Positions 8,529-12,304 of a stretch of 58,303 nt of DNA are shown in pieces. Numbering within the stretch: position 1 is the first letter of the stretch; each line of letters starts with the position of its first letter. Both the position numbers and the translations under genes were made by a program. Origin of the DNA: Magnetovibrio blakemorei (GTDB lineage: Bacteria > Pseudomonadota > Alphaproteobacteria > Rhodospirillales > Magnetovibrionaceae); contig NZ_MCGG01000007.1 of the NCBI RefSeq assembly GCF_001746755.1, positions 1-58,303 of the forward strand, written 5' to 3'. The notes under the pieces are model-generated. The model saw only the letters and a program-made list of their open reading frames with translations, ran no database searches and was not told the DNA's origin.

Positions 8529-10733
8529 GTGAGCCGATTAACACGACAATCGATCAACCAACGGCTTTTGGCTGGTGGTTTTTTGTTGATGGTCGTCTTG
8601 ATGGTGGTTTTGGGCGTGGGGGCGCAGCGTGCGGCCCGAACCCTCAGTGAAGTCACGTCAGATCTCTACAATCACCCCTATACCGTCAGCACAGCGTTGC
8701 TCAAAGCCAATGCCGGCATTATTGCGATGCAGGGTTACATGAAAGATGTGACGTTAGCGCAAACGCCATTTGACTTGAGTAACGCCGTCGCGAACGTGGA
8801 TCGCAATGAAAAAGACGTTCTCAAACAGTTCGATATCGCCGAAGAGCGGTTCTTGGGCGACCCCGTGCTGATCATTGAGGCGCGGCGTGTTTTTGAAAAC
8901 TGGAAAGGCGTGCGCAACGAGACCATCAATTTGGTGATAGCAGGCTATTCGGGAACCGCCGCCGCGCTGACCAAAGAACGTGGGGCCGCGTACGTTTCCG
9001 GCATGTCGTTGATTATGGACAACCTGCTTTTGCAGGTGCAAGCCAAGGCCACCGAATTCATTGCCCACAGCGAAGAAGAACGCGCCAACTCTCAACGCTT
9101 CATCACCATTTTGATGGTGTCCGTTGTGGTCATCGGCATTTTTGTGGCGACGTTTGTTTATCTCAAAATTCGCCAAGGGGCGCGTGAATTGATGCGGGCG
9201 AATAGCTTGATGTATGGGGTGGTCAATGGCTCACCCGATGCGATGCTGCTTCAAGAAGGGGAGCACTATATCGATTGCAATCCGGCGTCGCTGTCGATGA
9301 TCGGCTTCAAAAGACCCATCGACATATACAATGCGCGCCCCGCCGACCTTTCCCCACCCTTCCAAGCGGATGGTCGTCCTTCTGTAGAAAAGGCGGCCGA
9401 GTATATTGAAGAGGCGAGAGAAAAGGGCAGCAAGCGTTATGAATGGCTTCATAAGCGCGCAAACGGGGAGGTCTTCCCCGTTGAAGTTCTGTTGACGGCC
9501 TTAGATTTTGAAGGTCGTGATTTGCTGCATGTGGTGTGGCGCGATATTACGGAACGCAAACAGGCTGAGACCCAATTGCGCATTGCCAAAGAAGACGCCG
9601 AAATGGCCAACCGAGCCAAATCGGAGTTTTTGGCTTCTATGAGCCATGAACTGCGCACGCCGCTGAATGCGGTGATCGGTTTTGCCCAGATGATCAAGTT
9701 CGATCCGAAAAGTGATCTCAAAGCGCGTCAGATTGAATACCTTGATCACATTGAAGAAGGCGGCACCCACTTGCTGCGTCTGATCAATGATATTTTGGAC
9801 TTGTCCAAGGTCGAAGCGTATCAAACCGAATTGTACTTGACCGATATGAAGGTCTTTGACGCGGTTGAAAGCTGCGTTGCTTTGAGTGTGCCGTTGGGCT
9901 TGGCGCGAAAGATTGAAATCGAAAACACAATTGTCGATGAAGCGCCCATTGTGCTGCGCACGGACCCGATCCGGTTTAAGCAAGTTTTTCTGAACCTGCT
10001 GTCCAATGCCATCAAATACAACAAAATTGGCGGTTCCGTGAAGGTGCGCGGAGACATAACGGAAGATGGTTTTTATCGTATTTCGGTGACCGACACGGGG
10101 GTCGGCATTTCAGAAGAAGACTATCCGGGGCTATTTTTGATGTTTCACCGTCTTGGCGCCAATCCGTTGATTTCCAGCGAAGGCACTGGCATTGGCCTGG
10201 CGGTGACAAAGTTCTTGGTTGAACGCATGGCGGGACGCATCGGTGTCGAAAGCATCGTGGGCGAGGGGAGTACATTTTGGTTTGAACTGCCCTTGGCGTC
10301 CAATTCGGATGTGGTGATTTGGGATGATGAATTGCGCGTTGGTGTCGATGCCTTGGATAAAGATCATCAGGTGATTATCGCCTTGATGAACAGAACCGCT
10401 CATACGTCGCTGGATCAGCAAGAGCTTGATCTTGTGGTTAAGGAACTGGTCGAATACACCCATTATCACTTCAAACGTGAAGAAGCGCTGATGCAAAGCT
10501 TTCAGTATCCGGGTTTGAAAGAGCATCGCGCTCAACACCGCGATTTGATCACGCATGTGAACGCCTTAGCCAAAAAATGGCGGAAAAATCACGATCCTGA
10601 ATTGCTTCTTGATCTTCGAAATTTTCTGCGTGAATGGTGGATCGGTCACATCGTATCGGTGGATATCGACATTCGTGAATTCGTTCCCGTTGAGCATGGC
10701 GCCGTGCGTGACGTTCTTGACTCCATCAAATAA
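8529..10733 (+). CDS. Membrane sensor histidine kinase with C-terminal hemerythrin domain
   Basis: A 734-residue sensor. Order of parts: membrane helix (12-32); periplasmic four-helix bundle of the MCP type (about 33-190, with [19 protein letters not shown] and MKDVTLA); second helix (192-213); PAS domain (about 226-345, ending WRDITERK); HisKA with phospho-acceptor His373 in SMSHELRTP; ATPase with Asn493, DTGVG (522-526) and GTGIGL (552-557); and bacteriohemerythrin (about 600-718). All seven di-iron ligands are readable: His613, His647, Glu651, His666, His670, His707, Asp712. Hemerythrins bind oxygen reversibly, so oxygen or iron/redox sensing is the likely role (inference). There is no HAMP, no receiver domain and no adjacent response regulator. 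The start is GTG. Confidence 0.93.
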
Positions 10734-10825: not shown

Positions 10826-12304
10826 ATGTTTGAAGCCGTTGAGTTGGGCCACGCCGTCAGCAAAGCCGATTACAATGCTGAGGTACCCAAGTTACGGGAG
10901 CAGCTGTTGGACATTCAGTTTGAACTGGGTGACAAAAAGCCATTTCCGGTGATTTTGATCATTTCCGGCGTGGATGGCGCGGGCAAAGGCGAAACCGTCA
11001 ACACGCTCAATTTTTGGATGGACCCGCGCAACATCCATGCGCACGCCATGGCCGATCCCAGTGATGAAGAGCTTGAGCGCCCGGCCATGTGGCGCTATTG
11101 GCGCAAATTGCCGCCGCGCGGCTCAATTGGGGTGTTTTTTGGCTCTTGGTACAGCCATCCCATGCGCATGCACATCGACGGTGGCAAAAGCATCGATTAT
11201 CTGGACAGTTATCTGGACGACTTTCTGCGCTTTGAACGTATGTTGGCGGACGAAGGGGCACTGATTCTTAAGTTTTGGCTGCACTTGTCCAAGGATGATC
11301 TGAAAAAGCGTTTGAGCCAATTGGACAAAGACAAAGCCACCACATGGCGGGTCGGGAAAAAAGAATGGGATCGCTATGATCGCTATGATGATTTGCGCCC
11401 GGTGGCCGAGCACGTTCTGCGTCGCACCTCGACCGGACATGCGCCCTGGATCGTGGTCGAAAGTGCGGACGAAAAATACAGAAACTTGACCGTTGCCAAA
11501 ACCTTGCTCAAAGCTGTAAAGGCGCGCCTGGAAACAGGTGCCAAGCCCATTGCGGCTTCCGTGCCGGTGCAAGCCTTGGATCACGGCGATGGCATCAATC
11601 TTTTGAACACACTGGATTACTCCAAGTCTTTAGATAAAAAGATCTACAAAGAGCAGCTTGAGCATTATCAAGGGCGCTTGAACAAGCTGTGTCGCTCCAA
11701 AAAATTCCGCAACCATTCGATTGTTGCCGTGTTCGAAGGCAATGACGCCGCAGGCAAAGGCGGTTCCATTCGCCGCGTCATCGGGGCGATGGACAGTCGC
11801 ATGTACAACATCATTCCCATTGCCGCGCCGACGGATGAGGAAAAGGCCCAGCCGTACCTGTGGCGGTTCTGGCGTCATCTGCCGGGGCGGGGTAAGGCGG
11901 TTATTTTTGACCGTTCTTGGTATGGCCGCGTGTTGGTGGAGCGGGTTGAGGGCTATTGTTCCCAAGCCGATTGGATGCGCGCCTATAGTGAGATCAACGA
12001 CTTTGAAGAAGAAATGGCCCGTCACGGCATCATCGTCGTGAAATTCTGGCTGTCGATCACCGATGAAGAGCAGTTGGCGCGGTTTAAAGAACGCGAAGCC
12101 ACCGGCTATAAGCGCTTTAAACTCACCGACGAAGATTGGCGCAACCGCGATAAGTGGGACGCGTATTCGAGTGCGGTGTGCGACATGGTCGAACGCACCT
12201 CTACCGAAATCGCACCGTGGACGGTGGTTGAAGCCAATTCCAAGTACTATGCCCGCATCAAGGTCTTGAAAACCCTGTGCAAACGCTTGGAGGCGGAGCT
12301 TTAA
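10826..12304 (+). CDS. pap: Polyphosphate:AMP phosphotransferase (tandem PPK2)
   Basis: Two fused PPK2 domains, the arrangement of class II enzymes that phosphorylate AMP to ADP with polyphosphate. Domain 1 (about 1-230) has Walker A GVDGAGKGE; domain 2 (about 265-492) has GNDAAGKGG. Both have the lid arginine regions (WRYWRKLPPRG, WRFWRHLPGRG) and the SWY segment. In characterised members the second half is catalytic. At 492 residues it is full length. A GGGGAG site precedes the ATG. A short hairpin (TCACAG/CTGTGA) and a possible TGCTAGAGT -10 element lie in the 92 bases before it. No polyphosphate-making ppk1 is seen here. Confidence 0.92.
   Translation: MFEAVELGHAVSKADYNAEVPKLREQLLDIQFELGDKKPFPVILIISGVDGAGKGETVNTLNFWMDPRNIHAHAMADPSDEELERPAMWRYWRKLPPRGSIGVFFGSWYSHPMRMHIDGGKSIDYLDSYLDDFLRFERMLADEGALILKFWLHLSKDDLKKRLSQLDKDKATTWRVGKKEWDRYDRYDDLRPVAEHVLRRTSTGHAPWIVVESADEKYRNLTVAKTLLKAVKARLETGAKPIAASVPVQALDHGDGINLLNTLDYSKSLDKKIYKEQLEHYQGRLNKLCRSKKFRNHSIVAVFEGNDAAGKGGSIRRVIGAMDSRMYNIIPIAAPTDEEKAQPYLWRFWRHLPGRGKAVIFDRSWYGRVLVERVEGYCSQADWMRAYSEINDFEEEMARHGIIVVKFWLSITDEEQLARFKEREATGYKRFKLTDEDWRNRDKWDAYSSAVCDMVERTSTEIAPWTVVEANSKYYARIKVLKTLCKRLEAEL

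Follow-up and report, generated by a model that had tools for sequence, protein, structure and literature searches.

A hemerythrin-tailed histidine kinase of Magnetovibrio blakemorei belongs to a family of cassette kinases with a possible DivK-type output

In this work, we have analysed a gene of Magnetovibrio blakemorei that codes for a sensor histidine kinase ending in a hemerythrin (Hr) domain, and that lies in a window (the whole stretch of DNA analysed) of 58,303 nucleotides. The HisKA-HATPase-Hr end of this protein is a cassette found behind exchangeable inputs, with conserved iron ligands and kinase motifs, and in cassette-bearing genomes the non-canonical DivK-like receivers are associated with hemerythrins. 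We propose, in a reading whose chances we put just short of even, that the Hr domain serves these kinases as a shared oxygen or redox gate, and that their core signals to DivK-type receivers, mainly extra DivK paralogues. The window kinase, which has no receiver gene nearby, would behave like its relatives. If the gate is real, many stimuli would be filtered through one iron-based oxygen/redox switch in one cell, and the switch would sit at the output end of the kinase and not at its input end, an uncommon place among metal-based sensor kinases.

The gene is a single ORF, and the reverse-strand reading of the same positions is interrupted by stops. Its features are:

8529..10733, + strand: HK-Hr gene, 734 aa, GTG start, stop codon counted in
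8553..9056, + strand: 4HB_MCP_1 sensory module, residues 9-176 (Pfam 28.5 bits, cut-off 27)
9234..9554, + strand: PAS domain, residues 236-342 (PAS_9, 42.6 bits)
9615..9818, + strand: HisKA dimerisation/phosphoacceptor domain, residues 363-430 (Pfam 69.8 bits)
9645-9647, + strand: phosphoacceptor H373 in HELRT (SHELRTP), motif read
9963..10298, + strand: HATPase_c catalytic domain, residues 479-590 (Pfam 86.6 bits)
10299..10319, + strand: ATPase-hemerythrin junction, seven residues 591-597 (cassette alignment)
10320..10682, + strand: hemerythrin domain, residues 598-718 (TIGR02481 105 bits; PF01814 50.6 bits)
10365..10367, + strand: iron ligand H613 (cassette alignment)
10467..10481, + strand: iron ligands H647 and E651, HxxxE (cassette alignment)
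10524..10538, + strand: iron ligands H666 and H670, HxxxH (cassette alignment)
10647..10664, + strand: iron ligands H707 and D712, HxxxxD (cassette alignment)

All five Pfam domains scored above their gathering thresholds when the 734-aa protein was searched. Pfam Hemerythrin (PF01814) covers residues 605-708 with 50.6 bits against a cut-off of 25.3, NCBIfam TIGR02481 (hemeryth_dom) covers residues 598-718 with 105 bits against 51.75, and the best relative of the domain among solved structures is the bacteriohemerythrin 4xpy (E=2.7e-10). The original prediction had described a complete kinase core, seven correctly spaced di-iron ligands, an Hr domain lying after the ATPase domain and two further inputs, a periplasmic helical bundle and a PAS domain, and each of these was upheld. 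H373 and the nucleotide-binding residues N489/N493, D522/G524/G526 and G552/G554/G556 are all in place, the ligand numbering is right, the domain order follows from the Pfam and NCBIfam matches, with the Hr domain starting 7 residues past the end of the HATPase match in one ORF, and the two inputs correspond to 4HB_MCP_1 and PAS_9. Read from the letters, hydrophobic helices at about 14-34 and 190-212 presumably flank the periplasmic four-helix bundle. Pfam finds no receiver domain in the protein, which is therefore not a hybrid histidine kinase, nor is it DivJ, since the NCBIfam DivJ equivalog gives 157.2 bits, far under the cut-off of 1000. The gene is flanked by a DUF4197 gene and a PPK2 gene, and the closest receiver domain on its contig is about 22 kb off, so we regard it as an orphan kinase. 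A promoter scan found 2 sites, against 2.1 in shuffled sequences.

How could a hemerythrin at this place act on the kinase? We picture a sensor kinase bound to the membrane, with the fixed HisKA-HATPase-Hr cassette as its catalytic end. The hemerythrin would carry a putative di-iron site responding to oxygen or redox state, and upon oxidation or oxygen binding this domain, lying behind the ATPase, would alter its hold on the ATPase domain, the state of the iron pair being passed on through a short rigid junction. Kinase (or phosphatase) activity would go up or down in this way, on top of the signal from the kinase's own input, in the window kinase the periplasmic helical bundle and PAS. Phosphate would then be exchanged, in either direction, with single-domain receivers of the DivK type, above all with the lineage's extra DivK paralogues, and low-oxygen or redox information would enter the DivK node of cell-cycle control. 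The HELRT motif presumably marks a kinase also able to act as a phosphatase, so the Hr domain might act on either activity. The conserved seven-residue junction, free of indels, would be compatible with mechanical coupling; the kinase core is nearly indel-free too, and the absence of indels is therefore a property of the whole cassette, not of the junction alone. An AlphaFold2 model (input of 8 sequences: the window protein, L065-L070 and L293) has a mean pLDDT of 73.6, a pTM of 0.54 and four helices at 611-718; its pLDDT falls below 50 at junction residues 593-609 and from 709 onward, which makes the model of no use for the coupling question.

The original prediction had also set the architecture apart from the usual contexts of Hr, and this stood in part: it is rare outside the order and not rare within the lineage. 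A unique architecture is ruled out by the own genome (3.64 Mb in 91 contigs), where 12 of the 77 HisKA matches (75 above cut-off) belong to HisKA-HATPase-Hr cassettes behind differing inputs; across 10 of these copies the inputs comprise LuxQ-periplasm, PAS, 5TM-5TMR_LYT, NIT+HAMP and others. In the copies on contigs C89 and C41, which form a close pair, a receiver domain follows the Hr domain, the receiver of the first C41 copy (L022) being 97% identical to that of C89. In a second C41 cassette, at the end of the contig (L022, about 3.7-6.49 kb), the reading frame breaks within the Hr domain. The kinase of the C20 cassette (L016:2989-5141, -) is split into two overlapping frames immediately upstream of the H-box, either a pseudogene or a draft error, and one C41 copy has the last ligand pair one residue closer. 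Hemerythrins are plentiful in this genome, with 31 PF01814 matches (29 above cut-off), comparable to the 31-37 Hrs given for two Magnetospirillum species (PMC2556348). Many of the 31 are single-domain proteins, and there is an Hr-receiver fusion on C42.

Beyond the own genome, we searched with a profile (A1) running from the G2 box to the end of the Hr domain; cassettes score above 200 bits over positions of about 1-180, among the matches listed, while stand-alone Hrs score 141 bits or less. The cassette is present in at least 23 of the 317 genomes of the order (one of them, G082, has it only in broken or contig-end form) and in at least 3 of 384 other genomes in the class sample; in the phylum sample none was found in 397 other genomes at 1e-36. 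The three samples partly overlap, and the genome counts are lower bounds because the best 8 to 10 candidates per genome were scored. For comparison of members we gathered 56 cassettes from 25 genomes, 55 of them with an H-box (L166, which lacks it, is in the 56 and outside the 55). Left out were L163 and L185 of G082 (broken frame; end of a contig), L176 (a contig-end piece of G022), the second C41 copy (broken frame) and L180-L183 (other junction); three comparators, L184, L186 and L187, are without the cassette.

Every one of the 56 members has HATPase and Hr, and 55 have HisKA. The Hr domain stands at one end of the catalytic core in every member, whereas the inputs vary: PAS types, HAMP (12), dCache_1 (8), GAF_2 (5), MASE3 (3), 5TM-5TMR_LYT (2), SBP_bac_3 (2), NIT (1) and CheR (1), with a receiver after the Hr domain in two. 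Across the 55 cassettes the orthodox HisKA kinase motifs (H-box, N, G1 and G2 boxes), present in the window protein, are near-invariant. All seven iron ligands are retained in 53 of the 55, which exceeds chance, given that in the average Hr column of this alignment the commonest residue occupies only 53% of rows. The distance from the G2 box to W598 is 47 positions in all 55, the W598-H613 and H613-H647 lengths are constant and no indel occurs between the G2 box and H647; from the H-box to the G2 box there are 179 positions in 52 of 55. The two exceptions to ligand retention are L148 (G014), with three of the seven gone, and L167 (G127), with one gone. On their sequences both are candidates for natural ligand-independent kinases, and the fixed cassette with its swapped inputs, these two ligand-losers included, offers natural variants for mapping Hr-to-kinase signalling.

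Kinase-Hr fusions apparently arose more than once, since L180-L183 have another junction (in L181-L183 the G2 box lies 108-111 residues from the HxxxE motif, against 95); by their sequences they are apparently independent fusions. Another order, kinase-receiver-Hr, is seen in L116:1-1953 (+) of G021, with an Hr near the cassette type and an unrelated-looking kinase core. In the tree of the 55 cassettes the own copies are scattered, and 28 of its 52 inner branches are left open by low support. The window copy branches off alone and deep, with L158 (G060) and L135 (G009) nearest to it by path. Recent amplification within the genome is not supported: shuffling gives 10.2 changes on average, the 11 own copies take 9, a count as low being reached in 89 of 500 shuffles, and the identity of the window copy to any other is 55% at most. 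The simplest reading of the tree would be a high turnover of the cassette among genomes. Scanning genome contigs with the window protein gave 8 loci, all matching the PAS/kinase part and none across the Hr domain; a search of plasmids gave kinases of a general kind, with coverage of the query below 80% throughout, and a scan of viral contigs one Hr match.

Several known proteins share part of this design. As the original prediction had it, hemerythrins occur mostly as single-domain proteins or on chemoreceptors and GGDEF proteins (PMC4919030, PMC2556348, PMC9388753), the most frequent architectures being MCP-Hr and Hr-GGDEF (Alvarez-Carreno et al. 2016, PMC4919030). The PMC9388753 review names MCP, GGDEF, HD-GYP and P-type ATPase as Hr partners; the terms 'HisKA', 'HATPase' and 'two-component' are absent from its text. 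It describes bacterial Hr sensors by oxygen binding or redox-dependent catalysis, quick autooxidation, a wide substrate tunnel and fusion to an N- or C-terminal functional domain, and the window protein shows the last of these features. DcrH, Bhr-DGC and Bhr-HD-GYP likewise have an Hr with canonical ligands fused to a signalling output, and in the DcrH chemoreceptor the Hr is also C-terminal (PMC9388753); they differ from the window protein, whose output is a histidine kinase. The same domain pairing was counted by Bailly et al. in 2008, who list histidine kinase domains 4 times in 84 chimeric Hrs (PMC2556348), as a count that comes, in the relevant part of that paper, without domain order, family, ligands or partners. 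The architecture is not rare in its lineage, fusions of histidine kinase and Hr were already counted in 2008, and we recognised no characterised HK-Hr protein in a literature search whose coverage falls short of most subscription journals. FixL-type and globin-coupled kinases are haem-based and carry an N-terminal oxygen-sensing domain. In them, as proposed for the window protein, a histidine kinase is under the control of a metal cofactor and its oxygen state; the window protein is unlike them in having a predicted di-iron domain, placed after the ATPase domain.

What are the partners of these kinases? About 25 nt downstream of the C20 cassette there is a 123-aa frame with a single receiver domain, which among solved receivers scores 150 bits with Caulobacter DivK (1m5t) and 83 with the next, PleD. 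It falls outside the canonical DivK clade, and the next own receiver is 38% identical within the set searched. The DivK-like neighbours came up with a broad receiver profile, two diverged seeds having missed them. There are three DivK-like receivers in the own genome, two of them (C20 and C37) adjoining a cassette and one (C28) alone; an Hr lies within 3 kb of 2 of these 3, against 5 of 77 other receiver matches, 2 of the 5 being cassette-fused receivers. ChpT, a part of the pathway below DivK, is present in this genome.

In 26 cassette-bearing genomes we found, at a threshold of 1e-25, 39 DivK-like places spread over 22 genomes. Their tree places 22 in one clade (99/98 support), exactly one per genome, which we label canonical, and 17 outside it. 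The ORFs neighbouring each place were scored with Hr and kinase profiles, and an Hr is linked (fused or adjacent) to 10 of the 17 non-canonical members against 1 of the 22 canonical ones. The ten comprise receivers beside a cassette kinase (G000:C20, G000:C37, G009:C263), beside a cassette-type Hr remnant (G128:C8), beside a free Hr (G010:C31, G128:C29) and fused to an Hr in one ORF (G010:C49, G012:C53, G022:C49, G083:C28); the lone canonical case, in G003, is an opposite-strand 840-aa ORF with an Hr, 385 nt off. By Fisher's test, which ignores phylogeny, the difference gives p=2.6e-4 with G003 and 3.1e-5 without it. DivK-Hr fusions occur in 6 of the 317 genomes of the order, 4 of the 6 being among the 23 cassette genomes (p=2.9e-4, phylogeny again ignored); in G067 the match to the fusion covers only positions 1-216 of 254. 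The fusions have the receiver first and then the Hr in frames of 256-264 aa (L241:3691-4476, -; L246:8332-9099, -; L258:2121-2912, +; L260:4048-4833, +); the search across the order added L277 and L278. No paper treating DivK together with hemerythrin was found in the literature searched.

The window kinase itself resembles the kinases beside these receivers. In the phosphoacceptor domain it shares 65-66% of residues with the three DivK-adjacent kinases, 55-62% with other own cassettes and 38-59% with 21 other own HisKA domains. The residues at what we take to be the specificity positions (H+7, +8, +11 and +12) are NAGF; they were considered as proof of a common partner and discarded, because NAGF also occurs in 13 of 21 other own kinases (the 21 include the broken C41 cassette kinase) and so does not single out DivK kinases.

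Several findings weigh against DivK as the general output. G007, 99% complete and with three gathered cassettes, lacks both a DivK-like match at 1e-25 and a ChpT match over cut-off, and G014, G082 and G095 (59-83% complete) also lack a DivK match at that threshold. Of the 56 cassette loci only 3, within the stretches of DNA examined, have a DivK-like gene beside them, and the window gene is not one of these. The Hr-linked label clusters on the DivK tree, so the cases are not independent: with 9 of the 10 labelled it takes 5 changes, where shuffling gives 8.2 on average and came as low in 3 of 500 runs, and the C20 and C37 cassette kinases are sisters (94/93). Some linked cases are damaged: the C20 kinase frame is broken, G128:C8 retains only an Hr remnant and the G128:C29 receiver has lost its normal start. 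In the DivK-Hr fusions an Asp stands at the position matching the sixth ligand His (H707), which makes their Hr a different type from the cassette Hr. Taken with G007, the rarity of adjacency and the damaged cases, this means that the DivK link may hold for part of the family.

It is possible, though less likely than the DivK-type output, that the kinases are oxygen- or redox-gated and signal to various receivers, with the DivK neighbourhoods forming only a subgroup; the partners would then include the fused receiver of two own copies, hybrid partners and distant response regulators. The two own post-Hr receivers, only 24-33% identical to the DivK-like ones in partial alignments, point this way, as do the other receivers near L144, L151 and L155, the 53 loci with no DivK-like neighbour and the cassettes of G007; the 10 of 17 non-canonical DivK genes tied to Hr and the nearness of Hr to 2 of 3 own DivK-like receivers, against 5 of 77 others, argue for the DivK-type output that we favour. 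If the DivK link holds, oxygen or redox state would act on the DivK-CtrA cell-cycle pathway by a direct molecular route, and whether such bacteria tie division or polarity to oxygen could be tested on purified proteins. Going further, and with rather less confidence than in the shared gate, we suggest an oxygen/redox layer on the DivK node made up of Hr-tailed kinases, adjacent DivK paralogues and DivK-Hr fusions, in which kinase and receiver would both be set by oxygen or redox state.

DivJ and PleC, HisKA kinases of the PdhS type, act on DivK (PMC4211667), a partner that is only proposed for the cassette kinases. PleC-DivK and no DivJ has been described in Magnetospirillum and Rhodospirillum (Brilli et al. 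2010, PMC2877005), to which we infer that the own order is near. If the absence of DivJ holds there too, our guess, by analogy, is that another DivK kinase would be wanted.

We consider it improbable that the Hr domain is an oxygen or iron store, a scavenger or an anchor, holding the kinase or supplying or protecting chemistry with no gating. A role in binding or delivering oxygen is ascribed to single-domain Hrs (PMC11841059, PMC12607906), and the genome is rich in all kinds of Hr; against this, the Hr keeps its fixed place in 56 of 56 gathered members while the inputs change. Di-iron sites react with several small molecules. A site that gates the kinase and reports NO, peroxide or iron itself, in place of oxygen or general redox state, nevertheless appears quite unlikely to us: a bhr-domain protein has been linked to O2 and/or NO sensing (PMC12607906), and on the other side stand the seven canonical Hr ligands kept in 53 of 55 cassettes, sequence data that do not discriminate between ligands.

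The PPK2-family gene next to the window kinase gene (10826-12304, +) starts 92 nt downstream of it on the same strand. For the Hr gene bhr-66, a nearby polyphosphate kinase and response regulator have been described, along with higher expression in hypoxia (PMC12607906), a likeness of neighbourhood that is possibly a coincidence.
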